A stretch of 40,139 bases of DNA, taken from positions 1 to 40,139 of the forward strand of contig JAAZNF010000049.1 of NCBI GenBank assembly GCA_012798435.1, given 5' to 3'. Source of the DNA: Myxococcales bacterium (GTDB lineage Bacteria; Myxococcota; B64-G9). Positions 7,847-22,009 of the stretch are shown here, piece after piece; position 1 is the stretch's first letter; every line of letters begins with the position of its first letter. A program made the position numbers and the translations under genes. The notes under the pieces are model-generated. The model saw only the letters and a list, made by a program, of their open reading frames with translations, made no database searches and had not been told where the DNA came from.

Positions 7847-7873
7847 GATTTGTCATGAAGCAATGCGAAAATC

Positions 7874-7902
7874 TTGCCCATTTCTCGGGACTTTCCTACA
7901 CT
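7874..7902 (+). promoter_or_regulatory. Promoter of the pseudokinase gene
   Basis: TTGCCC (7874-7879), a 17-base spacer and TACACT (7897-7902) form a plausible housekeeping promoter (four of six matches each). The predicted start near 7909 lies downstream of the ATG at 7855 and upstream of the ATG at 7921, which favours the later start codon. Confidence 0.45.
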
Positions 7903-7920
7903 CGTGCCTCGAAGATCGTC

Positions 7921-10065
7921 ATGCCAAGGTCCAAGACACATTATGAACCGCTGGCGGTGCTGGCCACCGGCAAGACCTCGAAGATCCTGCTTTCCCGAGA
8001 GAACTTGCCGGACGGCTCGTCCCGCCTGGTGGTGCTGAAAAAGGTAAACCCCGAGCTGACCCAGCGGCCCGAGGCACGCCAGGGCTTTCTGAGTGAGGCG
8101 CAGGCCGGCAGCCTGTGCAATCACGCCAACCTCACGCGGGTGTGGAGCGTCGGCACGGCCAAGGGCAACTACTTTGCGGTGCTGGAGTTTTTGCTGGGAG
8201 ACGGGCTCGGCCTGGTGATGAGCGAGGCGCACAAGCGCGGCCGCCGGCTGCTGCCCGAGATGGCCGCGGGCCTGATGGCCCGGGTGTGCGATGCCTTGCA
8301 CCATTTGCACCAGCTCCGCGACCCGAAGGGCATGCCGCTCCACCGGGTGCACCGCGCCGTGTGCCCGGAGAACATCCTGGTGCTGTACGACGGTGGGGTG
8401 AAGCTCTTGGGCTTCGGGGGCGGCGACGGCCCGGAGGCCTACCGCTCGCCCGAACAGGCGCGCGGCCAGCCCACCGATCTTCGTTCCGACGTCTTCTCCT
8501 CCGGGGTGGTACTGTGGGAGCTCCTGTCCGGCCGGAGGCTGTTCGCGAAGAAGACCCCCGAGGAGAGCCTGCGGGCCATCGCCGCCTGCGACATTCCTCC
8601 GGTGCGAAAGTTCAGCCCCGAGGTGCCGTCTCCGCTCGAGACGGTGGTACGCCGGGCGCTGCAAAAGAACCCGGCCTCCCGTTTCGCCTCCGCCGGGCAG
8701 ATGGCCATGGAGCTTCGGGATTTCTTCTCGCGCGCGGTGAAGAAATCCGGTGAGGCGGCCATCGCCGAGTTCGCATCCGCCGCGATGGGCGAGCGCATCC
8801 AGCGCAAGCGGGAGTTGGTGAAGGAGATCCAGAGCGGCCGGGCGAAACCAACCGACATGGTGCTGCTCGCCCCCGACACCTCCACGGCGCTGCCTTTCCC
8901 GGCGCTGGAAGAGAGAGGCGCCGCCCCCTCCGCCCCGGAAGCTGCCCGCCCGCAACCGCCCCCGCCCGAAAAACCGAGGACGCCGCCCCCCACGCAGGGG
9001 CCTCCGCCGTTGCCCGGCAACGATGAGGAGCGCACCAGCGAGTTCCTCCAGCCCACGCGCCCCATCCAGGTGCCTCGCATCGCCCCGGCCACCGGAGAGG
9101 CACGCCCGTCTCCTCCAGTGAAAACCACACCCCCGGCTCCGGAGCCGCCACCGCCGCCGGCGCCCGCGGTCCCGGCCGCGTCCCCGGAAAATGGTGGAGA
9201 TGACGAGGCCGAAAAATTCAACGTGCCCACCATCCCCGTGGTGGCCCTGCCCATCACCCGCCCGCCGGGGACGCCGCCGCTCCTTGCGCTGCCTGAAACG
9301 ACCTCTCCGGGAAAGACCGGCTCCTTCGACACACCCTCGACGCTCCCGCCGCATCCCGGCCCGCCCCCGATGCCCGTGGCCGAGACGCCGGCCGAGGCTG
9401 GCACCGGCGCTACTGCTGCCGAACGCGACGACAGCGCGGCGAAGGGGGCCGCTCCCGTCGCCATCCATTCGTTCGAGACCCGGCGCCTGCGGCACAAGAA
9501 TCGCCTGCTCCTCATCGGCGCCTCCGGCGGGATGCTGGTCCTGCTGGCCGTGTTGGCCATCGTGCTCTCCTCTACCGGAAAGGATGACACCACCCGGGCT
9601 CCCATCCCGCCACCCGTCGTCGAGGCGGCCGCCCTGGCCGCCGACGCGGGAGCCCCCGAACAGGAACCCAACGCCGAGTCGGACGCGGGCCCGCCGGCCG
9701 GGGCGCTCGACGCGGGCTCGGCCATCGCGATGGATGCCGGGGCTCGTCCCGACGCCGGGCCTCCCGTCGCCGAAGCCGACGCGGGGCAGAGCGAAGCCGA
9801 CGCGGCGCCGCGAGCTCTGACAACGGCCGTCGGCACGCCGCGGCCGGCCCCCCAGACCGGCTTTCTGCGCCTCAACACCGAGCCCTGGAGCGAGGTCTAC
9901 CTCAAGGGGAAGAAACTCGGCGTGACCCCCCTGGTGGACGTGAAACTCCCGGCCGGGACCCACGCGCTCTCGCTGGTGAACCCCAAGAAGGGCATCAACA
10001 CCACGCTGAGCGTGACCATCAAGCCCGGCAAGACCACCAGCCTGGTCAAGGAACTCTCCGAGTGA
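7921..10065 (+). CDS. Membrane-anchored pseudokinase with C-terminal PEGA domain
   Basis: A 714-residue protein with a Ser/Thr-kinase fold (~8-270), a Pro-rich linker, a transmembrane helix near 530-552 (LLLIGASGGMLVLLAVLAIV), an Asp/Ala/Gly-rich periplasmic linker and a PEGA domain at the C-terminus (GFLRLNTEPWSEVYLKGKK onward). The kinase keeps the beta3 Lys (VVLKKV), the helix-C Glu (FLSEAQ) and the activation-loop YRSPEQARG. The catalytic-loop HRD is HRA (HRAVCPEN) and the metal-binding DFG is GFG (KLLGFGGG), so both key Asp residues are lost and phosphotransfer is unlikely. The ATG at 7921 is preferred because the candidate promoter lies between it and the in-frame ATG at 7855, although its ribosome site is weak. 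It is probably a signalling scaffold that links envelope sensing to cytoplasmic partners. Confidence 0.85.
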   Translation: MPRSKTHYEPLAVLATGKTSKILLSRENLPDGSSRLVVLKKVNPELTQRPEARQGFLSEAQAGSLCNHANLTRVWSVGTAKGNYFAVLEFLLGDGLGLVMSEAHKRGRRLLPEMAAGLMARVCDALHHLHQLRDPKGMPLHRVHRAVCPENILVLYDGGVKLLGFGGGDGPEAYRSPEQARGQPTDLRSDVFSSGVVLWELLSGRRLFAKKTPEESLRAIAACDIPPVRKFSPEVPSPLETVVRRALQKNPASRFASAGQMAMELRDFFSRAVKKSGEAAIAEFASAAMGERIQRKRELVKEIQSGRAKPTDMVLLAPDTSTALPFPALEERGAAPSAPEAARPQPPPPEKPRTPPPTQGPPPLPGNDEERTSEFLQPTRPIQVPRIAPATGEARPSPPVKTTPPAPEPPPPPAPAVPAASPENGGDDEAEKFNVPTIPVVALPITRPPGTPPLLALPETTSPGKTGSFDTPSTLPPHPGPPPMPVAETPAEAGTGATAAERDDSAAKGAAPVAIHSFETRRLRHKNRLLLIGASGGMLVLLAVLAIVLSSTGKDDTTRAPIPPPVVEAAALAADAGAPEQEPNAESDAGPPAGALDAGSAIAMDAGARPDAGPPVAEADAGQSEADAAPRALTTAVGTPRPAPQTGFLRLNTEPWSEVYLKGKKLGVTPLVDVKLPAGTHALSLVNPKKGINTTLSVTIKPGKTTSLVKELSE

Positions 10066-10116: not shown

Positions 10117-10917
10117 CTATTTCCTCGGCAGCGAGCGCAGGTAGGCCTTGTCCTCCCGGTCCTGCGGGGTCACCAGGCGGTCGATGGCCTCGGCGGGGTT
10201 GCGGCGCGTCCCCTGCGCCCAGGCATAGCGATCGCCGAGTTCCACGAACGCCTCCACGTCGCCGTGGGCGGCGGCCTTGGCGAACCACTCCCTGGCCAGC
10301 ACGAAGCTCTGCTTCGCGCCCCGCTCGCCCTTGAGGTAGGCCATGCCGATGTCGAAGGCGTGCTCCTTTTCGCCCCGTTGGTAGGCCGCGACGCGCTCCT
10401 CGACCTCGCTCTTGCCGACGGCGTCGCCCGGCGCGGCGGTTCCCTGAAGCATGTTCTCCACCGCCCGCTCCAGGCTGGTGACGATGTCCTCCGGGGCGCA
10501 GCCGCCGCTGTGGGTCCCCGCCTTCTCGCTGGTGGCGCGCAGAAGGTCGTAGAGGTTGACCGTCACCTTGCAACTCTTGCCGAAGCGCAGCACCTGGCTG
10601 GCCAGCGACTTCTGCGCGGCCAGCTCGCGGCCGAGCTCGATCTGGCAACTCTCGTCGAAGCAGGCCCTGTAGGAGCCCTGTTTCTCGTCCCGCAGGCGCT
10701 CCCTGAGCTGCGCGCGCGGCACCACCGCATAGCCGTTCTGCGTGAGCAGCGAGCCCAGGTAGTCGGTAAGCTGCTCCCGCTGGGCGCCGCTCATCTTGTT
10801 GCCCTTGTCTTGGATCTCGAACACGGCCACGATCGCTTTTCCGTCCTCCGCCCGCGTCCCGCTCCAGGCTCCGGCGACCAACCCAACCACCCACGCGAGT
10901 GTTTGCCGTGCCCTCAT
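10117..10917 (-). CDS. Periplasmic CsgG/TolB-N-like protein with Sel1-type repeats
   Basis: A 266-residue exported protein. A signal peptide (MRARQTLAWVVGLVAGAWSG...RAE) precedes an alpha/beta domain that begins AIVAVFEIQDKG. It continues with a helix, LTDYLGSLLTQNGYAVVPR and CFDESCQIELGRELAAQKSLAS. That succession (strand, 'which opens/closes' helix, polar cap with CxxxxC) is typical of CsgG-like/TolB-N-like domains that are common in myxobacterial lipoprotein loci. The C-terminal ~90 residues resemble two Sel1/TPR-like repeats (AFDIGMAYLKGERG and AREWFAKAAAHGDVEAF). It lies convergent to the pseudokinase gene, 51 nt away. The conserved pair of Cys in DESC/FDESC could form a disulfide. Its partner is unknown. 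Confidence 0.75.
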   Translation of the reverse strand: MRARQTLAWVVGLVAGAWSGTRAEDGKAIVAVFEIQDKGNKMSGAQREQLTDYLGSLLTQNGYAVVPRAQLRERLRDEKQGSYRACFDESCQIELGRELAAQKSLASQVLRFGKSCKVTVNLYDLLRATSEKAGTHSGGCAPEDIVTSLERAVENMLQGTAAPGDAVGKSEVEERVAAYQRGEKEHAFDIGMAYLKGERGAKQSFVLAREWFAKAAAHGDVEAFVELGDRYAWAQGTRRNPAEAIDRLVTPQDREDKAYLRSLPRK

Positions 10918-11013: not shown

Positions 11014-14000
11014 CTATGGAGCTCCGCGACGATGAGGACCGTTTTCGCCCAGGCAGGGGTGATCCGCGGGCGGCGAGCGCACCACCGGCCGACCGTCGCG
11101 CCACACCACGGGGACGTCCTGCCAGATTCGTCGCAGCAGCCGACAGCGCTCCGTGTCGAGGACCTCGAGATCCAGCCCGGTCACGTCCCCCAACTCGCTG
11201 GCCAGCCACAGCCGGCCTCCCTCCCGGGCAACATGCGTCACCGCGCCGTGCAGCCGGGCCAGGTGCATGCGCTCCCCCGAGGAAAGATCCCACAACCCAT
11301 ACCGGCCGTCGGCGAACGCCACCAGCGCCGTCCCCATCGGCAGCGGCTCGATGCGCGCAACCGGGCTGGGGGGCGTGTCCACCAACTCGAACGCGCGCTG
11401 GGGCTTGCCGAGCGTACGCACGCTCACCGCGCCACGGGCGCTGCCCAGCACGAGCCGCCCTTCCGAGCGGGCCACCGCCGAGGGGTCGCGCACGCCCGGC
11501 AGCGACGCGGGCGCGCTCCCGTCCGGGGCGAACGCCAGCACTCGCTCCGTTTGGGCCACCAGCAACCCGTCGCCATCGGCGAAGATGGCTTTCGCGCCCT
11601 CGGCCAGCAGGCGAGGCGAAGATTCGCCGTTGGTCCACAACGCCCGGTCGCCCGCCAGCGTAAGGCACCCCCGGCTCGTCGCCCACAACGCCTGCACCGG
11701 GCCCACGTCGCCCGAGAACCGTCTGGCGTCGGCCCGTACATCCCATTGTTCCAGAACTCCGCGTGCATCGACCAGGCACAGGCACCCGCCCTCTGGATCC
11801 GCGAAGGCCCGGCGGGAACCCTCGACCGCCCGCGCCCAGGCTCCCGGCGGCGCCGGCGCCGGGTTTTCCACCCCGTTTGAGAGCCGTGCCCAGCCACGCT
11901 GGGTCAGCAACAGAGGTGCGCCGGGCATCAGCAGGCGTGAAGTCCACAACGCCGCGCCGCTCTCGGCGTCCCACAACCGCACCGTGTCGTCGGTGCCGGC
12001 CGAGACCAGACGCCTGCCCTGTGCATCGTAACGCAGCGAGGTGACCTCTCCGCGGTGCGCGTCGATGCGGAGCACCTCTGCGCCGGAAAGATCCCAGATC
12101 CGGATCACACCGTCCGCGCAGGCAGCGGCCAGCCGATCCGCGCCGGGCTGGAAGGCGAGCGCCCACACGCTGGCACCCGCCTCGACCAGGATCCGAAATG
12201 AGCCGTCGCGAACATCCCCCAGCCGGACCCGGCCCGCCTCGTCCGCCCAGGCGAACCGGGGGCTATCCCGGTGCCATGCCAGCGCCGTGTTCGGGGATTC
12301 GCCACGCAGGACCCGCGGCGCACCGAGCGGCAGGGGCCACAGGCGCACGCTGTGATCCCGCCCCGCCGAGGCCAGCCAACGCCCATCGGGCGAGAAGGTG
12401 GCCGCGAGCACCTGGTTGGCGTGACCGGGCTCGAGCCGCCGGTCCCGCCGGGTGGCCAGGTCCCATACCACCAGCGGCGTGTTGACGTACCCCGCGGCCA
12501 CCTGCCCGCCGCCGGGCGCGAAGGCCACGCTGGCGACCGGCCCGTAGTCGGGGGCCATGAGCAGCGTGCGGCGCCCCGAGCCGAGATCCCAGATTGAAAC
12601 CGAATGGTCCCAGCTCCCGGACGCCAGCCGCTGGCCGCCGGGAGAAAAATCGAGAGAGGTCACCATGGCGCGGTGGCCCGACAGGCGCTGCATCACAAGG
12701 CCCGAGGCGGCGTCCCGGATCAAGATCAGCCCGTCCTGCCCCGCCGAGGCGATGCGCTCGCCCTGCGGCGAAAAGGCCACCGCCTGGACCGGCTCGGAAT
12801 GGCCCTGCGGCGGGCGCTCCAGCGGATCCCCCAGGTGGTGCCATATCCGCAGGATCCCATCCTGGCTGGCGCTGGCCAGCAGGCGGCCCCGCGGGTCCGC
12901 GTCCAGCCCGTCCACCGAGTCGGGCTGGGCGGAGAGCTGCGAGAGCAGGCTGCCGCCCACCGGATCATACCTGCGCAGGGACCCGTCGAAGCAGCCCGTG
13001 ATCAGGCTCCCGTCGGGCGAGAAGGCGAGCTCGGTGACGTAGGCCGGGTGTTGCAACACGTGAGAGAATTGACCGCGAGCGACATCGAGGAGCCGCACCG
13101 TCTGATCGGCGCTCCCGGAGGCCAGCCAGCGGCCATCCGGGCTGAAGGACAGACAGGAGCCGAAGCCCTGGTGCCCCGGGTACAACCCCAGCCGGCTTCC
13201 GTCGCGCGCGTCCCACAGGGCCAGCGTGGCGCGCAACCCGTGCAGCGAGGCCAGCCGCGAGCCGTCGGGGCTGTAGGCGAGCGCGCTGACGATCCCCGCC
13301 GCCTCCGGCCCCTCCAGCGCGAGCGTGCGTTCGATCTCCATCTCCGGGAAGCGCCACAACCGCACCTGCCGGTCCTCTCCCGCGCTGGCCAGCTGGCGGG
13401 CGCCGGGGTGGAACCGCACCCGCCACAACCGGGCCCCGCTCCCGGCCAGGACCCTCTCCGGGGTGGGGTTCGGGATCCGCCACAGGATCACCTCGCCGCG
13501 CTCCGAGCCGCCGGCCACCCAGCCGCCGTCGGACGAGACGTCCAGGGTGACGATCGGCGCTGGCGCCTCCAGCGTGAGACGCTCCATGGCCTGGAGCTCG
13601 AGCAGCGCCACCGAGCGGTCCTGCGAGGCCACCGCCAGGTAGCGGCCGTCCGGAGAGAAGCGCACGTCGTAGAGGATGGCGCCGAGATCCCGCGACCACC
13701 ACAGGGGCTCGCGTTCCAGGCGCCACCACAGCGCGCGCCCCGGCGCCGAGTCCAGGATCTCCAGCGAGGCGCGCAGCTTGGCGCGGGCCTCGAGCAGGCT
13801 GCCGCGCGCCGCCGCGGCCGCCGCGCCCTCGCGCTCGGCCTGCGCCCAGCGCTGCTCCTCCCGTAAAAGCGCCCGGCTCTCGGCCCGGTGGGCCGCCGCC
13901 TCCTCGCGGTAGGCGATGGTGGTGGCCACCAGGGCGGCCACGATCACCAAGAGCACGGCGAGCGTGGCGACCAGGGCGATCTTGTGCCGCAGGGCGAAGC

Positions 14001-15108
14001 GCTGCAAGAGATCCCAGGCGCTGTAGTTGTAGGCGCTCACGCGCCGGCCGGTGAGGAAGGCCTGGATCTCGGCGGCCAGGCTCTCCGCCGAGGGGAATCG
14101 CCCGGCGCGGTTGGAAGACATGGCCTTCTCCGCGATGGCCGCCAGCTCCGCTGGCGCGTCCGGTGAGATCTCCAGCACCCGGGGCCGGCTGCCGTTGCGG
14201 GCCGCCTCCAGGGTGTCGCGCCCCCCCTGGCCCAGGAAGGGGGGGCGGCCGGTGAGGAGCTCGAACAGCACGGCGCCGAGGCCGAAGACGTCCGACAGCT
14301 CGTCCACCTCCTCCGGGCGGCCACCGGCCTGTTCCGGGCTCATGTAGGCGGGCGTGCCGATCGATGCCCCCGCCATGGTGAGCTGGGCCGGGGCCGCCGC
14401 CGCGTCGCCGGCTCCCTCCGCCGGCGGGAGGTCGGCCTGGCCCCGCACCTTGGCCAGCCCCCAGTCCAGCACCACCGTCTCGCCGAAGCGGCCGATCATC
14501 ACGTTGGCCGGCTTGATGTCGCGGTGGATGACGCCCCGGCTGTGCGCGTAGGCGATGGTGTGGCACAGCGCCAGGAACCGGTCCAGCAAGCTAAGCCGCT
14601 CATCCAGGGTGGCTCTCTCTGCCAGGGCCTGGGCCAGCGTCTGGCCGCGGATGAGCCGCATGCTGTAGTACAGCTTGCCCTCGGGGGTGCGGCCCAGCTC
14701 GTACACCGGGACGCTGCCCGGGTGCTGTAGCTGCCCTGCGACGCGCGCCTCGCGCAGAAAGCGGGCCCGGGCGGACTCTCCGGGTCGGGAGTGGGAGCCG
14801 GGGGCCTCCTCGGCCCGGGGAAGCAGCTCCTTGATGGCCACCTCGCGCCCGAGCACGTCGTCCACACCCAGCCAGATGCGGGCCTGACCACCGCGGGCGT
14901 ACTCGCGAAGCAGGGTGTAGTGGAACTCGGCTGGCGCGGGCAGGTGCGGCCCGGTGTCCGCTCCGCCAGGCGCAGAACGAACACCGGCCGCCAGCAACTC
15001 CCGGCAGGCGGCGCACTCGTCGAGGTGCGCGCGGATCTGCTCCTCCTGTGCGGGAGGCAGGGTGCCCTCCAGGTAGGCGGCGACCAGGTTGTCGTCCGGA
15101 CAGTCCAC
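11014..15108 (-). CDS. Zinc-finger / Ser-Thr kinase / transmembrane / WD40 protein
   Basis: A 1364-residue signalling protein. The GTG start at 15106-15108 has AAGGAG six bases upstream and opens directly into an anti-sigma-type zinc finger: Cys3, His28, Cys32 and Cys35 (AHLDECAACRELL). A complete kinase domain follows (~60-330). It has AIKELLP, HRDIKPANVM near 194, VLDWGLAKV (DWG in place of DFG, common in this kinase class), GTPAYMSPEQAGG and a C-lobe. A transmembrane helix (KIALVATLAVLLVIVAALV, ~374-400) and a short coiled coil come next. The rest is about 20 WD40 repeats, 14 of them clear (RLASGSWDHSVSIWDLGSG) and the last ~6 degenerate. They are enough for about three seven-bladed propellers outside the membrane. 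It is divergent from the sigma-factor gene, which suggests that the kinase controls the sigma factor. Confidence 0.9.
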   Translation of the reverse strand: MDCPDDNLVAAYLEGTLPPAQEEQIRAHLDECAACRELLAAGVRSAPGGADTGPHLPAPAEFHYTLLREYARGGQARIWLGVDDVLGREVAIKELLPRAEEAPGSHSRPGESARARFLREARVAGQLQHPGSVPVYELGRTPEGKLYYSMRLIRGQTLAQALAERATLDERLSLLDRFLALCHTIAYAHSRGVIHRDIKPANVMIGRFGETVVLDWGLAKVRGQADLPPAEGAGDAAAAPAQLTMAGASIGTPAYMSPEQAGGRPEEVDELSDVFGLGAVLFELLTGRPPFLGQGGRDTLEAARNGSRPRVLEISPDAPAELAAIAEKAMSSNRAGRFPSAESLAAEIQAFLTGRRVSAYNYSAWDLLQRFALRHKIALVATLAVLLVIVAALVATTIAYREEAAAHRAESRALLREEQRWAQAEREGAAAAAARGSLLEARAKLRASLEILDSAPGRALWWRLEREPLWWSRDLGAILYDVRFSPDGRYLAVASQDRSVALLELQAMERLTLEAPAPIVTLDVSSDGGWVAGGSERGEVILWRIPNPTPERVLAGSGARLWRVRFHPGARQLASAGEDRQVRLWRFPEMEIERTLALEGPEAAGIVSALAYSPDGSRLASLHGLRATLALWDARDGSRLGLYPGHQGFGSCLSFSPDGRWLASGSADQTVRLLDVARGQFSHVLQHPAYVTELAFSPDGSLITGCFDGSLRRYDPVGGSLLSQLSAQPDSVDGLDADPRGRLLASASQDGILRIWHHLGDPLERPPQGHSEPVQAVAFSPQGERIASAGQDGLILIRDAASGLVMQRLSGHRAMVTSLDFSPGGQRLASGSWDHSVSIWDLGSGRRTLLMAPDYGPVASVAFAPGGGQVAAGYVNTPLVVWDLATRRDRRLEPGHANQVLAATFSPDGRWLASAGRDHSVRLWPLPLGAPRVLRGESPNTALAWHRDSPRFAWADEAGRVRLGDVRDGSFRILVEAGASVWALAFQPGADRLAAACADGVIRIWDLSGAEVLRIDAHRGEVTSLRYDAQGRRLVSAGTDDTVRLWDAESGAALWTSRLLMPGAPLLLTQRGWARLSNGVENPAPAPPGAWARAVEGSRRAFADPEGGCLCLVDARGVLEQWDVRADARRFSGDVGPVQALWATSRGCLTLAGDRALWTNGESSPRLLAEGAKAIFADGDGLLVAQTERVLAFAPDGSAPASLPGVRDPSAVARSEGRLVLGSARGAVSVRTLGKPQRAFELVDTPPSPVARIEPLPMGTALVAFADGRYGLWDLSSGERMHLARLHGAVTHVAREGGRLWLASELGDVTGLDLEVLDTERCRLLRRIWQDVPVVWRDGRPVVRSPPADHPCLGENGPHRRGAP

Positions 15109-15397
15109 GTCCCGCTCCTTGTGGCGCTGGCAGGCGCCGCCATCTTCGAGGAACCGACGGCCGGGGTCAAGCGGCGGCGGCGGGGCCCCGATCCTCGGAT
15201 CACGCGAACGGGTGCTGCCGCCTCTTCCCCCGGCTCTCTCCCGAAAGATCGTTCGCCGGCCCCCCCTCGGCGTCACCCCTTCGCGTAAAAATTCTATCGC
15301 GCAATCAGTGGGGCCGAGTTTTGTCCGGGGATTCGGGCAGGGAAAGGCTTTTTTTTTCGGACGGGTCGGACTAGATTCCGCCTCGGAGACAAGCGGC
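15109..15397. promoter_or_regulatory. Divergent intergenic region, kinase and sigma factor
   Basis: This 289-bp gap separates the two divergent start codons. The Shine-Dalgarno of the kinase gene (AAGGAG, minus strand, 15120-15115) is at its left end. A nine-T run at 15349-15357 and a TAGATT at 15372-15377, 20 bases before the sigma-factor ATG, could be part of a sigma-gene promoter, but no good -35 accompanies it. On the minus strand, TAGAAT inside AAATTCTAT near 15290-15296 is a -10-like hexamer without a clear -35. If the sigma factor is autoregulated, its own recognition elements would lie here. Confidence 0.35.
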
Positions 15398-16303
15398 ATG
15401 GCCACGCCAGGTCTGGTGGAGTCGTTCTTTTCGCTCCTTCCCGGGGGCGCGCCCGAGGAGCCGGAAAGACGCGCAAACCTCGCGCGTGGATTGGAGGCGG
15501 CCTGGCAGGCGGCGCGGCAGGCCTGGCCGGGGATCGAGCTATCGAGCGAGGAGTTCGCCGCCTACCTCCTTTCACGCCTGACAAGATCTGAGCCCGTCGA
15601 GGACGAGATCATCCGGCTCCACGCCGCCGACCTGTACCTGGCCTGCGCCTGCCAGAGAGGCGACGCAGAGGCGCAGAAAGCCCTGGAGGGGCTGTGCCAA
15701 CAGGCCGCCGCCGCGGCGCTGCGCGGCCAGGATCCGTCCGGCGCGCTCTCGGCCGAGGTGGCGCAGGGACTGCTCACGCGGCTTTTATCCGGCGGCGCGG
15801 ACGGCGCGGGCAAGCTCGGGCAATTCCAGGGGAGAGCGGCGTTCAGGGCGTTTCTGCGCGTGGCCGCGTCGCGGGAAGCCCTCAACCTGCGCCGCGCCCG
15901 GCGGCGCGAGTGCCCGCTGGCGGAGGATCTGCTGCTGCGCCTGGTCTCGGAGGAGGATCCGGAGCTGGCGCTGTGGAAGCAGCGCTACCGGCAGGAGTTC
16001 AAGCTCGCATTTCAAGAGGTGCTGCGCTCGCTCTCCCCCCGTGAGCGCAACCTGCTCTCCCACCAGGTCGTCGAGGACCTCACCCTGGACCAGATCGGTG
16101 CCATGTACCATGTCAACCGCTCCACGGTGTGCCGCTGGCTCCAGAGCATCCGGGAACGGCTGCACCAAGCGACTCGCGCAGCCCTGGCCGAGCGCTTGTC
16201 CGTGACCCCGCAAGACGTCGACAGCATCCTGCGCCTGGTGCTGAGCCGCATCGACACCAGCCTGGAGCGGGTGCTGGCGAGCCCCGTCTCCAAAGAGACC
16301 TGA
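15398..16303 (+). CDS. Sigma-70-family (ECF-like) RNA polymerase sigma factor
   Basis: A 301-residue sigma factor. The ATG at 15398 opens a ~140-residue N-terminal helical region. Next is a region-2-like segment (FQGRAAFRAFLRVAASREALNLRRARRR, about 142-170). Region 4 is a good helix-turn-helix: LRSLSPRERNLLSHQVVEDLTLDQIGAMYHVNRSTVCRWLQSIRERL (about 207-255). The long N-terminus and the region-4 sequence resemble the Myxococcales-specific sigma-70 family 1 rather than a minimal ECF. No -35 region is evident upstream, only a TAGATT. The gene faces away from the zinc-finger kinase, the presumed regulator. It is followed after 87 bases by the secreted-protein gene at 16391, possibly a target or cotranscribed. 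DNA targets are unknown. Confidence 0.88.
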   Translation: MATPGLVESFFSLLPGGAPEEPERRANLARGLEAAWQAARQAWPGIELSSEEFAAYLLSRLTRSEPVEDEIIRLHAADLYLACACQRGDAEAQKALEGLCQQAAAAALRGQDPSGALSAEVAQGLLTRLLSGGADGAGKLGQFQGRAAFRAFLRVAASREALNLRRARRRECPLAEDLLLRLVSEEDPELALWKQRYRQEFKLAFQEVLRSLSPRERNLLSHQVVEDLTLDQIGAMYHVNRSTVCRWLQSIRERLHQATRAALAERLSVTPQDVDSILRLVLSRIDTSLERVLASPVSKET

Positions 16304-16390
16304 CGTACTCTCCGGCCCCCTCTGCAACAAAGCCCACCGAGCCGTGTCTCCTGGTCGGACGATTCCACCCGAAAGGGAGGCCATACCCCC

Positions 16391-18694
16391 ATGAGTGACG
16401 AGAACTACACTGAAAACCGCAAGGATACGGCCGTCAGCCGCATGGACATCGCCAAGCGCGACCGGCCGCGGGGCCCACGCAGCCCGCGCGGGCGGGCGCG
16501 CGGATGGACTGCCACGAAGGCTCCCACCGTCAGCCTTCTCGGCATGCTACTGTTGGCGCTTGCCGCCACTGGTCTTGCGGCTTGCGGATCGGGCTCGAGC
16601 TGCGTGCCGGACTGCACCGGCCGCGCCTGCGGGCCCGACCCGGTGTGCGGTCAAAGCTGTGGAAGCTGCACGGGCGGCGCCGAGTGCCGCGACGGAGTGT
16701 GCGGGGGCGGAACCTGCCAGACCGACGCGGACTGCGGCCCGGATGAGAACTGCTCAGGCACCGGCGAATGCCAGTGCCGCTACGGAAGCTGCCAGACCGG
16801 CTGCTGCCACCCGGCGCAGGCGGTGCTCCAGGCCGGCGGGGTGTTGCTCGCAGACGGCGCGCTCTCGGTCGAGATCACCGTCGCCGTCTCCAGCCAGGAC
16901 GGCACGCCGCTCGCGGGCGTACCCGTGGCGCTCGAGAGCGATCCCGTCATCAGCGACATCCAGCCGGCCGAGGGAGCCACGCTCGCGGACGGGCGCTTCA
17001 CCTTCACCGCCCGCGCGAATGTGGCCGGAGGGGTCGGCTTCACGGCCAAGGCGGGAAAACCGCTCGAACCGCTGGGCCAGCAGCTCCAGGTCATGTTCGG
17101 CGCCAATCTCGAAGTGGCCTTCGGCGAGCTGCACTACGTCTATCCCGGGGCGCTGCTCGAGATCACGGCCACGGCGCAGGACGCCGCGGGGCCGGTGGGC
17201 GGAGTGGCGCTCGCGCTCGAAAGCTCCCGCGGCGCGACCGACCGCGTCGCCGCCCTGACGGAGAAGACCGGCGACGACGGGAAGATGCGCTTCGTGGTCC
17301 AGACGGAAGAAAGCGGCCCGGCGGTGTTCTCGCTTTCGGTGGCGGGGATCTCCGCTCTCGCGGTCTCGAGCGAGCCGTACCTCTTCGGCGGCCCGCGTCT
17401 GTCCGGCCTGGTCGGGTTCCCGCAACCGGACGGCCTGCCGACCCCGACCCGCGTGGCGCTGGCCTGGATCAACCGGCCGGCCCTGGAGGCCGGCACGCTG
17501 GCCGCACGCGAGGCAACTTCGATCTCGCTGGGCGAGCTGGTGCCGGAGGATCAGGTCCCGTTCGCTCTGGAGGCGCCTTTCGTCCCGCCGGAGACCGACT
17601 TCTACCGGCCGGCGCCGTCCGATCCTACGCTGCCCGCGACCTTCGAGATCGCCACCTACGCGCCCCTGCTCTACGCCGACGTGGACGGAAGCGGCTCCTT
17701 CTCGGCGACGGACAAGATCGTCGGCTGGCGCGAGGATCGCGACCTGATGCTCTTGTACGCGCGCGGCGAGCTGCCGCCCGAAGCCGTCATTCCGGGTCTC
17801 GTCCCCGGCTACCAGTTCATCCGCTGGACCGACGAGGAAAAGACCATCCTGCCGCTCGCCGGGCACCTCGACGACCACCCGCTGTGGCTGCGCGGGGCCG
17901 ACTGTCCCTCCGCCACGCTCCGCGGATCGATCCGCTGCATCGGCGCGCCGCCCGCCCAGCCGACGTACGCCTGCGCCATGATGATCGCCCCGTCCGTCCT
18001 GGACAACGTGGCGGTGTGGTGGAACCGGGGCAACCAGCTCATCCTCGCCTGCCAGCGCGTCACCCTGGCCGCGGACCAGGAGACCCCCTACCAGCTCGTG
18101 CTGCCGGCACCGGCCACCGTCGACCCCGGCTACACCGCCTTCCTGGCCCGGCCGGCCGCGGGCTGGCCCCTGGTCGGGGCGCTCATGGGGTTCGTGTTCG
18201 CCGATGCCGACGCGGACGGCGCGTACACCAACATGGACGACAACATCAACACCGGGGACCGGCTGCTCGGCGTGGCCGACTTTCCGCTGGGCTACGGCAT
18301 CCCGTGGCTGGAGTGGGTGCAGGAGGCCATCCCGCTCGCGCTCCAGTTCGCCTACCAGGACGTCAACCGCGGCTACAACCTGGCGCTGGCGCCGCTGGAC
18401 GTCGGCATCCAGACGGTGGTGGACGACTACACCCTGGAACTCGCGCGCAACCTGAACCCGGGCGGGCGCGATCTCTGCTTCCGCATCGTCCGGCGCGCCA
18501 GCGGGACGCAGACCGAGATCATGCGCGGCGACGACCTCGCCACGGGCTCGGTGACGGCGGGCAACCGGGTGACCTCGGCCGCGGGCGGCTTTGCCGGCCG
18601 GGTCCAGCCCAACGACCGGCTCATCTTCTGCAACCAGATCGAGAAGACCACCTTCTTCGATCTCGACACGGACTATCCCATGACGGCGCGCTGA
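16391..18694 (+). CDS. Exported Ig-like domain lipoprotein, unknown function
   Basis: A 767-residue secreted protein, probably a lipoprotein. AAAGGGAGG is upstream of the ATG at 16391, at a somewhat long distance. This start gives an unusually long basic n-region (~45 residues) before the hydrophobic core (SLLGMLLLALAATGLAAC) with lipobox LAAC and Cys65; an internal ATG at codon 18 is an alternative. Residues ~66-135 are Cys-rich (CGQSCGSCTGGAECRDGVC). Next come two Ig-like (Big-1/invasin-type) strands-and-loops domains (~140-330), followed by a large domain of unknown type. It contains Asp-rich loops (DVDGSGSFS and DADADGAYTNMDD) that could bind calcium. It follows the sigma-factor gene and precedes the M4 protease gene by 36 nt, so the three may be cotranscribed. 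Confidence 0.8.
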   Translation: MSDENYTENRKDTAVSRMDIAKRDRPRGPRSPRGRARGWTATKAPTVSLLGMLLLALAATGLAACGSGSSCVPDCTGRACGPDPVCGQSCGSCTGGAECRDGVCGGGTCQTDADCGPDENCSGTGECQCRYGSCQTGCCHPAQAVLQAGGVLLADGALSVEITVAVSSQDGTPLAGVPVALESDPVISDIQPAEGATLADGRFTFTARANVAGGVGFTAKAGKPLEPLGQQLQVMFGANLEVAFGELHYVYPGALLEITATAQDAAGPVGGVALALESSRGATDRVAALTEKTGDDGKMRFVVQTEESGPAVFSLSVAGISALAVSSEPYLFGGPRLSGLVGFPQPDGLPTPTRVALAWINRPALEAGTLAAREATSISLGELVPEDQVPFALEAPFVPPETDFYRPAPSDPTLPATFEIATYAPLLYADVDGSGSFSATDKIVGWREDRDLMLLYARGELPPEAVIPGLVPGYQFIRWTDEEKTILPLAGHLDDHPLWLRGADCPSATLRGSIRCIGAPPAQPTYACAMMIAPSVLDNVAVWWNRGNQLILACQRVTLAADQETPYQLVLPAPATVDPGYTAFLARPAAGWPLVGALMGFVFADADADGAYTNMDDNINTGDRLLGVADFPLGYGIPWLEWVQEAIPLALQFAYQDVNRGYNLALAPLDVGIQTVVDDYTLELARNLNPGGRDLCFRIVRRASGTQTEIMRGDDLATGSVTAGNRVTSAAGGFAGRVQPNDRLIFCNQIEKTTFFDLDTDYPMTAR

Positions 18695-18730: not shown

Positions 18731-21700
18731 ATGCCCCGCATCATGTGTCCTGGTAATGTTTTTGTTTTTTTCGTGGCCGTCCTGGCCTTCTTCGGCTGCG
18801 GCGGCGACGGGACGCAGAGCAACCCCGACTCCGGCCAGCCCGATCCGACCGAGGTGAAGCTGACCCTGTCCCCCGCGAACGCGCGCCTGCGGCCGTCAGA
18901 CACCATCGAGATCGAGCTGGAGCTGTCACCGGTGAAGGGCAAGAGCCCCGTGGACCTGTACGTGTTCTACGAGGAGGAGGGCCGGCGGCGCTTCTTCGCG
19001 CCGGGAGACGACCTGTTCGAACCCTCGCCGCGCCCGCTGGCACGCGCCGTGTCGTCGGACCGTTCTTCTTCCGAGGTCGTCTATGCCGGGACGGCCTCGG
19101 CGCTCCCCGCCGGCCGCCCCATTTCCTACCAGGCGCTGGCCATGCTCTCGGGCGCGCCCTTCGACCCGGCGCGGGCCGCCAGCGCGCCGGCGGCGGCCCA
19201 GCTCACGGTGGTGGCCGACGCGGCGAACCCCGCTGACGCGGCGCAGGTGACGCACGTCCAGGCCTTGAAGGAAAAGAGCGCCAAGCCGCTCCGCCTCGAG
19301 CTCGCGCAAGGCGCCGTGTGGCACATGGAGGGCGACCTGGCGGCGGCGGACATCGCCCCGGGGGCGAACCCGCAGGACGCCGACGCCGTGGCCCTGGCCT
19401 TCTTGGAGCGGTACTCGGAGCTGCTGCGCGTGCCCGCGGCCCACCGCGCCATGCGCATGATGGGCCGGCGACAGGAGCTCTCGGACGTGCTGCTCTTCCA
19501 CCAGACGATCGACGAGATCCCGGTGTACGGCTCGGCCCTGCAGCTCGTGCTGCGCTCCGGCGCCGGCGGCAAGCGCCTGTGGCAGGTGAACGGCCGCTAC
19601 CTGCCAAATCCGGAACGCTACCCCCTCACGGGCGCCCTGGGCCCGGAGGCGATCCGGGCCGAGGTGGCCCGCCGGCTCGACATCGAGCCGAGCGCGCTGC
19701 GGCTGATCGCCCCTCTCCGGCAGTGGGTGGTCGATCCCACCCTGTTCGCGCCGGCCTGCCCTTCCTGCCCCGTCGTTCCCCACGCGCCCCGGCTGGCCTG
19801 GCGGGTGCTCTACCTCGAGCCGGTCGGCGGCGGCGTGGCGGACGAGTTCTGGGACGCGTCTCGCGGGGAGCGGATCCTCGCCCGGGCCCGGGCGTTCGAG
19901 CGCGACTACCGCATCTACGACGCCAACGGCGAGGGGCCGGACAGCTGCTTCATCGGCAACGTCCACTGCGACGCCGAGTACGACGAGGGTGGGGTGTGCC
20001 GTTACGAGGTCGGCTGCCCGGCTCTCTCCGATTGTTGCAACAACGCATGCCTGTGGGGTCACTGGCGCTGCGCCTCCCCCGACGCCGAGGAGGACGCGGC
20101 CTTCGAATACACCAACGACATCTACAACTTTTTGCGCGAGGTCTTCGGGCGGGACTCGTACGATGGCCACGACGGCATCTTACGCATGTACCTGCACGCC
20201 GGCTCTTCCTGGGTGAACGCCATGTCGAAGGACTGCGGGGCCTACCAGGTCCACATCTTCGGCGACGACGTGGCCAGCCTCAACGTCATGGCCCACGAGG
20301 TGGGGCACTCCTATCACGGTTCGGAAGCAGACTACGACTACCAGGACGAACCCGGCGCGGTGGCCGAGCACATCGCCGACGCCATCGGCCACTTCGTGGG
20401 GTTCTGGACCGGCAAGGACCCGAACTGGATCATCGGCGACAGCTCGGTGGTAGGCAACCGCGACATGAGCAATCCTCCAGCCGATGAATACGCCACCGGC
20501 GATCCCTACCCGGACCACTACCGAGACTATCTGAACACCCGCGGCACCAGCGAACCCAGCCGCTCCAATGACCGGGGCGGAGTGCACCGCAACCACATGA
20601 TCCTGAGCAAGGCGCTCTACCTCTTCACCGACGGCGGGAGTTTCGAGGGCTTCGACATCCGCGGCATCGGCGAGGAGAAGGCCCGCCGCCTGTACCAGCG
20701 CGCCATCGACAACTACCTGGCCGACAACGCCAACTTCTCCTGGTTCGTGCGGGCGGTACGCTCGGCCTGCGACGACTCCGTCGGCCGTGACGGCTTCAGC
20801 GCAAACGATTGCTGCCAGGTACAGAACGCCTTTGCCGCGGTGGGCATCGGCGACCCCGACCGGGACTGCGACGGCACCCTGGACGCCGCCGACACGGACG
20901 ACGATGGCGATGGGGTCCGTGACACGCGCGACAACTGCCCGCAGGCCGTCAACCCGGACCAGGCCAACGCCGATGGCGACGGGGAGGGGGACGCCTGCGA
21001 CCCCGACGCCGACAACGACGGCCTTCCCAATGAAGCCGACAACTGCCCGCTCGTCGCCAACCCGGGCCAGGCCGATCGCAACGCAGACTCCCAGGGCGAC
21101 GCCTGCGACGACAGCGACGGCGATGGAGTCATGGACGACAGCGACAACTGCCCCAATACGCGCAACCTCGATCAAGCGAACCTCGACCGCGACGGCGAGG
21201 GCAACGCCTGCGACGACGACGACGACAACGACGGCCGGGCCGACCGCTACGACAACTGTCCTCTCTTCTACAACGTGGCCCAGGATGATGGCGACGGGGA
21301 CGGGCACGGTGATCCCTGCGACAACTGCTCCACCACGGCCAACCACGATCAGGCCGACCTGGACGAGGACCAGCATGGGGACGCCTGTGACGACGACATG
21401 GACAACGACGGCGTCGCCAACGAAGACGACAACTGCCCGCGGGAAGCGCACGAGGAGATGGAGTTCGCCCTCTGCCCGCCGAACACCTCTTGCCGCTATG
21501 GCTGTCCGTCCACTCCGCTGCTGCCCAATTTCGGCCTGCGCCTCCAGGCGGAGGCCCTGCTGGGCGCGGACCCAACCGTGCTCCAACCGCTGGCCCGCTT
21601 CTCGCTCGAGCCCTGCAACGTGCTGGACTGCGGCGACGGTCGGCTGATGGCCCCGGGCGCGGGAATGTCGGTGGCGCTCACCATGCAACTCGCGGCCGCG

Positions 21701-22009
21701 CAGGTGCCGCCCATGGAGCAACCCATGATCATCCATGCCGTGATCTTCGACCAGTCGGGCCGCGCGCTGGGAAAGCGGGACGCGCTCTTCTACACCAACC
21801 TGGGCGGCAAGCCGGAGCAGAAGCAGTTGCAACTCGACTTCGCTCCCGCACCCTCGTACGCCTGGGGCCGCGAAGTCGGCGCCGGCCTCCCCGCCCGCCC
21901 CGCCTACCAGCTGGCGCTGTCGATCGAGGTGGGCTCGCAGCAGAACGCCGAGCTCCTGCGCGACCACGGCCTGATCGTCCAGTCGAGCGCCACCGCCGCC
22001 ATCCCCTGA
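18731..22009 (+). CDS. M4 (thermolysin-family) metalloprotease with TSP3 repeats
   Basis: A 1092-residue extracellular zinc protease, probably a lipoprotein (signal core VFFVAVLAFFGC). After a ~150-residue N-domain comes an FTP/PepSY-like propeptide (~205-350). The catalytic domain has HEVGH (His522, Glu523, His526) and the third zinc ligand Glu546 in EPGAVAEHIAD; the 24-residue spacing from His522 equals that of thermolysin (142 to 166). RDMSNP and GGVHRNHMILSKALYLFTDGG (catalytic His619) also match the M4 family. About six thrombospondin type-3 repeats with DNCP motifs and DxDxDG loops (~712-903), calcium-binding in other proteins, precede a C-terminal beta-rich domain. A Cys-rich insertion lies before the active site. 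It likely digests extracellular protein in predation or nutrient uptake. Confidence 0.92.
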   Translation: MPRIMCPGNVFVFFVAVLAFFGCGGDGTQSNPDSGQPDPTEVKLTLSPANARLRPSDTIEIELELSPVKGKSPVDLYVFYEEEGRRRFFAPGDDLFEPSPRPLARAVSSDRSSSEVVYAGTASALPAGRPISYQALAMLSGAPFDPARAASAPAAAQLTVVADAANPADAAQVTHVQALKEKSAKPLRLELAQGAVWHMEGDLAAADIAPGANPQDADAVALAFLERYSELLRVPAAHRAMRMMGRRQELSDVLLFHQTIDEIPVYGSALQLVLRSGAGGKRLWQVNGRYLPNPERYPLTGALGPEAIRAEVARRLDIEPSALRLIAPLRQWVVDPTLFAPACPSCPVVPHAPRLAWRVLYLEPVGGGVADEFWDASRGERILARARAFERDYRIYDANGEGPDSCFIGNVHCDAEYDEGGVCRYEVGCPALSDCCNNACLWGHWRCASPDAEEDAAFEYTNDIYNFLREVFGRDSYDGHDGILRMYLHAGSSWVNAMSKDCGAYQVHIFGDDVASLNVMAHEVGHSYHGSEADYDYQDEPGAVAEHIADAIGHFVGFWTGKDPNWIIGDSSVVGNRDMSNPPADEYATGDPYPDHYRDYLNTRGTSEPSRSNDRGGVHRNHMILSKALYLFTDGGSFEGFDIRGIGEEKARRLYQRAIDNYLADNANFSWFVRAVRSACDDSVGRDGFSANDCCQVQNAFAAVGIGDPDRDCDGTLDAADTDDDGDGVRDTRDNCPQAVNPDQANADGDGEGDACDPDADNDGLPNEADNCPLVANPGQADRNADSQGDACDDSDGDGVMDDSDNCPNTRNLDQANLDRDGEGNACDDDDDNDGRADRYDNCPLFYNVAQDDGDGDGHGDPCDNCSTTANHDQADLDEDQHGDACDDDMDNDGVANEDDNCPREAHEEMEFALCPPNTSCRYGCPSTPLLPNFGLRLQAEALLGADPTVLQPLARFSLEPCNVLDCGDGRLMAPGAGMSVALTMQLAAAQVPPMEQPMIIHAVIFDQSGRALGKRDALFYTNLGGKPEQKQLQLDFAPAPSYAWGREVGAGLPARPAYQLALSIEVGSQQNAELLRDHGLIVQSSATAAIP

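Follow-up and report, generated by a model that had tools for sequence, protein, structure and literature searches.

A conserved pairing of a zinc-finger receptor kinase with a TIGR03001 sigma factor in Myxococcota, and its probable role as a kinase-fused anti-sigma system

The window analyzed here, a 40,139-nucleotide stretch of a contig of a Myxococcales bacterium, carries the gene of a receptor-type Ser/Thr kinase and, divergently oriented, that of a sigma-70-family factor, as a first-pass annotation made from the DNA letters had described (Table 1). The translated kinase begins with MDCPDDN...HLDECAAC, in which the previously noted Cys3-His28-Cys32-Cys35 arrangement is exact, and this N-terminus scores 41.3 bits against the Pfam zf-HC2 profile (PF13490; cut-off, 22.2). 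Pfam also recognizes the protein kinase domain and, many times over, WD40. The VAIK Lys (K93), the HRD Asp (D197), and the Asp at the DFG position (D215, within DWG where DFG is expected) of Hanks-type Ser/Thr kinases are all present, and judging from these residues the kinase is catalytically intact. A single strong hydrophobic segment is consistent with the membrane crossing proposed earlier and, given one transmembrane (TM) helix and a cytoplasmic kinase, the WD40 part would lie outside the cell. WD40-like blades recur with a period of ~41 residues starting at ~489. The portion up to ~1050, which contains most of the clear motifs, has space for 14 blades, i.e., two 7-blade propellers, while a third, degenerate set seems to occupy the last ~275 residues (to ~1325). 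The earlier count of ~20 repeats in three propellers was therefore reasonable, but the third is weak. An AlphaFold model of the WD40 part alone, computed in single-sequence mode, had a pLDDT of 38.5.

Table 1. Position and character of the features found around the sigma/kinase pair of the window
Feature	Coordinates	Strand	Description
Second Ser/Thr kinase	7855..10065	+	C-terminal PEGA domain; no zinc finger
Sel1-repeat protein	10117..10917	-	~96 bases downstream of the zinc-finger kinase
Zinc-finger receptor Ser/Thr kinase with WD40 repeats	11014..15108	-	1364 aa; GTG start at 15108; AAGGAG ribosome-binding site
WD40 repeats	11130..13700	-	~residues 470-1327; space for two clear sets of 7 blades plus a degenerate third one
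Single transmembrane helix	13914..13992	-	~residues 373-398; hydropathy
Ser/Thr kinase domain	14022..14937	-	~residues 58-362; K93, E120, H195-R-D197, N202, D215 present
ZAS / zf-HC2 anti-sigma-type zinc finger	14962..15108	-	Residues 1-49; C3, H28, C32, C35
Candidate promoter CGCAAT-N15-TTGTC (weaker copy)	15300..15325	+	Upstream of the sigma gene
TIGR03001 ("Myxococcales family 1") sigma-70-family factor	15398..16303	+	301 aa; family-specific C-terminal extension
Candidate sigma-dependent promoter TGCAAC-N15-GTGTC	16323..16348	+	Follows the sigma stop, precedes the lipoprotein start
Big_1 (Ig-like) lipoprotein, predicted target	16391..18694	+	767 aa; position behind the promoter; Pfam
M4 metallopeptidase with thrombospondin type 3 repeats, possible co-transcribed target	18731..22009	+	Pfam; 36-base gap

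The sigma factor belongs to NCBIfam family TIGR03001, with 204.0 bits (205.2 in a whole-genome search) against a curated cut-off of 154.6; its start is most likely the ATG at 15398 and not 15089, where the open frame begins. Three serines of its C-terminal extension (Ser 276, 283, and 288) are conserved in 86 to 95% of the family members, which makes them candidates, on sequence grounds, for a regulatory or structural role. Two other genes lie close to the pair. One encodes a second Ser/Thr kinase lacking the zinc finger, and the other a Sel1-repeat protein on the same strand as the zinc-finger kinase, of which it is a possible operon partner. A reading of the locus as a defense system was discarded, as the PADLOC hits correspond to generic kinase and repeat matches and the sigma factor has none.

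The 5.05-Mb genome from which the window comes contains one TIGR03001 sigma factor above the cut-off, 47 kinase matches, and 13 zf-HC2 matches. Among the matches listed, the window gene is the only one that fits the finger-plus-kinase profile at full length, and the only zinc-finger kinase found in the genome thus adjoins the only above-cut-off TIGR03001 sigma factor. More broadly, 11 of the 13 zf-HC2 matches, the window one included, are next to a sigma-like gene, although some of these sigma hits are weak; the two exceptions are L059 and L063. The presence of so many kinases in one genome could suggest that two abundant gene types became neighbors by chance. The neighborhoods of 126 TIGR03001 sigma factors from Myxococcota genomes were annotated with HMMs that started from the window proteins and were refined by iteration. 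A zinc-finger kinase was found near the sigma gene in 112 of them, in four gene orders (43 kinase-then-sigma, 34 divergent, 26 sigma-then-kinase, and 9 convergent), and a second set of loci from named genomes, including Myxococcus xanthus, Pyxidicoccus, Archangium, Kofleriaceae, and Nannocystaceae, was paired in 24 of 24 cases. This second set, which overlaps the first in some places, was obtained with an alignment query; a scan with the window sigma factor alone returned no relatives. Pairing that persists through four gene orders speaks for a functional link and against one inherited operon, and the survey refutes chance adjacency, to which we assign a negligible probability.

The survey also changes how the locus had been viewed. 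The combination is not a one-off: across Myxococcota, TIGR03001 sigma factors are as a rule paired with a zinc-finger kinase. The two genes are conserved side by side, so that the refutation specified in the first-pass annotation, part of which was the absence of such conservation, fails; the divergent orientation that it singled out is only one of four arrangements. Several of the 14 unpaired loci reach contig ends (e.g., L070, L094, and L101), and L118 is split between reading frames. In L050, a kinase (530-2437) does lie beside the sigma gene, with an anti-sigma-like N-terminus devoid of zinc ligands (DVDRLLMFLRGELS...) that, from its sequence, looks like a zinc-less version of the domain, as in non-zinc anti-sigma domains. 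The remainder are apparently lone sigma factors. Conversely, zinc-finger kinases also exist away from TIGR03001 sigma genes in the 24 genomes surveyed; for 20 of those checked, no sigma gene was detected in the fetched flanks, mostly ~6 kb per side, and a finger on a kinase thus does not always imply a neighboring sigma gene. Such orphans are common in some genomes and constitute the main evidence against a simple reading of the pair.

The partner kinases vary in their sensor part. Among 51 partners, extra domains most often belong to TPR families (TPR_12 in 29), a few partners carry nSTAND1, FGE-sulfatase, SAF, or pilus-protein-N domains, and hydropathy places exactly one TM segment after the kinase in 46 of 60. 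WD40 is one sensor variant among several, and TPR is commoner. Two observations were made along the way: G007, a relative in the same family, has 110 matches to the kinase profile, a striking expansion far above its neighbors, and a record labeled Comamonas sp. KCTC 72670 (L193) contains a typical Myxococcaceae sigma/kinase locus, so that its label is probably wrong.

The N-terminal finger has the hallmarks of a class I zinc anti-sigma domain (ASDI), i.e., an H-x3-C-x2-C motif with an upstream Cys or His. Across 51 diverse partner kinases, H28, C32, and C35 are invariant together with the kinase catalytic residues, and the first zinc ligand is a Cys or, rarely, a His. When a finger-only profile was compared with all PDB sequences, it retrieved RslA (1.4e-6), DdvA, ChrR (two sequences), a CHAT-domain protein, and RsiW; with the window finger alone, the top matches were RsiW, ChrR, and DdvA, all weak. 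The closest solved relatives are accordingly anti-sigma factors, which agrees with the anti-sigma type attributed to the finger from the outset. In the CHAT-domain protein (PDB 8rot), the match to the finger profile is N-terminal (7.2e-4), which suggests that similar fingers are also fused to CHAT proteins. The fourth ASDI helix, which contacts sigma region 2, is apparently absent: the last Cys and the kinase are separated by a short linker (20 to 63 residues across the family, 27 in the window kinase), and the structural model built for a relative shows no such helix either. The title of the PDB entry for RslA describes a complex with the −35 promoter binding domain of the cognate sigma factor, a mode of binding that would fit a finger without the fourth helix.

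Trees of the sigma factor, the finger, and the kinase domain were then built from 111 pairs and compared through their patristic distances. The correlation was 0.77 for sigma and finger, against 0.61 for sigma and kinase and 0.58 for finger and kinase. When partners were re-paired within genomes, which preserves species structure, the mean sigma-finger correlation was 0.22, and none of 1,000 trials reached the observed value. The finger kept its lead in every one of 1,000 genome bootstraps and also when compared with kinase windows of matched length (48 columns); the correlations dropped when close pairs were removed, with sigma-finger remaining at the top at every threshold. For comparison, known ECF/ASDI pairs gave an r of 0.82 and negative controls 0.5 to 0.6 (PMC7406223). 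The finger thus tracks the neighboring sigma gene more closely than its own kinase domain, for which direct contact would be the simplest explanation. Residue covariation between finger and sigma factor gave no localized signal at an effective N of ~50. An AlphaFold model of a natural in-frame sigma-finger read-through in L184, with the TGA read as Trp, showed good domains at a pTM of 0.46 and no confident interface.

A promoter-like motif of the ECF type accompanies some of the pairs. The dyad GCAA-N17-TGTC is strongly overrepresented just after the sigma stop, where it occurs in 12 of 21 nonredundant sigma-then-kinase loci, and the full TGCAAC-N15-GTGTC form follows the sigma gene in about one-third of sigma-then-kinase loci. 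The 126 loci contain 10 copies of the strict TGCAAC-N15/16-GTGTC pattern, all of them in sigma/kinase flanks, and about half of the 24 named loci have the motif directly after the sigma gene. What follows is either the kinase gene or a gene for a small secreted protein. In the window, the strict motif lies 43 bases ahead of the ATG of the lipoprotein gene, and the T-first pattern has only two copies in the whole genome, the other being inside a phosphofructokinase-like reading frame. The copy upstream of the sigma gene counts for less, since the pattern letters were relaxed after it had been seen. For most divergent or kinase-first loci, the search for a related motif was negative, and the dyads recovered from these two groups were only GC-rich or coding-like. 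We infer that the window sigma factor reads TGCAAC-N15-GTGTC. Co-transcription of the M4 metallopeptidase gene with that of the lipoprotein would follow from their shared strand and the short gap between them. In four loci (L147, L138, L126, and L183), a gene for a small secreted protein of the LKKGGQKDLSVPGMVRVAIDDPEVADV type sits between sigma and kinase genes, behind the predicted promoter; proteins of this type resemble the pilus protein N-terminal domain. M. xanthus strain AM003 (L191) has both the pair and the motif, which makes the system testable in a genetic model.

The reading that we favor, with a probability of about 0.6, is that the locus encodes a dedicated signaling pair in which a kinase-fused anti-sigma factor controls the local sigma factor. 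The N-terminal three-helix zinc domain of the kinase would bind the cognate TIGR03001 sigma factor, most likely via region 4, and thereby hold it at the membrane, while the extracytoplasmic WD40 part would sense a ligand or a partner protein. Sensing would alter kinase activity via the single TM helix, and phosphorylation of either the kinase itself or the docked sigma factor could then release or activate the sigma factor. Once free, the latter would transcribe a very local regulon from TGCAAC-N15-GTGTC promoters, consisting in the window of the gene just behind it, for the secreted Ig-like lipoprotein, and probably of the M4 protease and sigma genes as well; in some relatives, the kinase gene would also be a target.

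Whether the finger inhibits the sigma factor or simply brings it to the kinase is the question on which the main alternative turns. The finger could be a docking site only, with the kinase acting as a positive regulator that activates the sigma factor by phosphorylation, as with EcfP and EcfK of ECF43. We consider this unlikely, even though active-site residues are intact in nearly all partners, the helix 4 required for full class I inhibition is apparently absent, and the extension serines are conserved. In ECF43, the acidic region 2.2 motif has been replaced by uncharged S/T residues, and phosphate restores the charge, leading to activation (PMC8999054, PMC8103513). TIGR03001 sigma factors do have the neighboring transmembrane Ser/Thr kinase of ECF43, but as a family not this replacement: at least two region 2.2 acids are kept in 116 of 126, so the family as a whole would not be expected to use the charge-supply mechanism. 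The window sigma factor is among ten members with a single acid (motif LSAE); this weak motif is compatible with the docking alternative, and the family-level argument is thus not binding for it. In addition, the text on the ECF43 kinase PknS does not mention a zinc finger. As almost all partner kinases are catalytically intact, catalysis probably matters, and this, taken together with the retained acids, favors sequestration with kinase-controlled release over docking and activation.

A further possibility is that the finger serves the kinase itself, in redox or zinc sensing or in dimerization, and that the pairing reflects mere co-regulation of neighbors. The orphan zinc-finger kinases would be readily explained in this way, but the finger co-evolves with the sigma factor more than with its own kinase and has anti-sigma factors as its closest solved relatives, which leaves this explanation improbable. 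By extension of the sequestration reading, and tentatively, at slightly less than even odds, the pairs may form a phylum-wide class in which the receptor Ser/Thr kinase contains its own anti-sigma domain. A single protein would then sense the signal, sequester the sigma factor, and release it by phosphorylation, with different sensor modules (WD40, TPR, and others) coupling the same switch to different signals, each of which drives a tiny neighboring regulon. If so, anti-sigma sequestration and kinase phosphorylation, usually listed apart, would be joined in one receptor, a set of myxobacterial receptor kinases would gain a likely substrate, and the predicted promoter would provide a direct readout.

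Kinase-linked sigma factors are already known (ECF43, 59, 61, 62, 217, and 283), as are WD40/TPR receptor kinases (PMC8999054, PMC11032199). Nothing in the literature searched names TIGR03001 or a fusion of an anti-sigma finger with a kinase beside a sigma gene; the main ECF classification lay outside this search, and the novelty is therefore provisional. The WD40/TPR receptor kinases of Planctomycetota and myxobacteria share the cytoplasmic kinase, the single TM helix, and the periplasmic WD40 or TPR array (PMC11032199), although the words zinc and anti-sigma are absent from the text that describes them, as is a sigma pairing. In the ECF43 pairs EcfP-PknT and EcfK-PknS, a sigma factor is similarly encoded next to a receptor kinase that has one TM helix and a periplasmic sensor of varying type, among them TPRs (PMC13147305, PMC8103513), but these sigma factors have lost the acids of the 2.2 motif and receive their charge from phosphate, whereas TIGR03001 factors mostly keep the acids and their kinases carry an anti-sigma-type finger. 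The class I zinc anti-sigma factors (RslA-SigL, ChrR-SigE, RsiW-SigW, and DdvA) likewise present an H-x3-C-x2-C three-helix domain beside a sigma factor, with sequence kinship at the profile level and co-evolution with the sigma factor. Unlike them, the window-type finger is fused to a Hanks-type kinase, and a short linker takes the place of helix 4.
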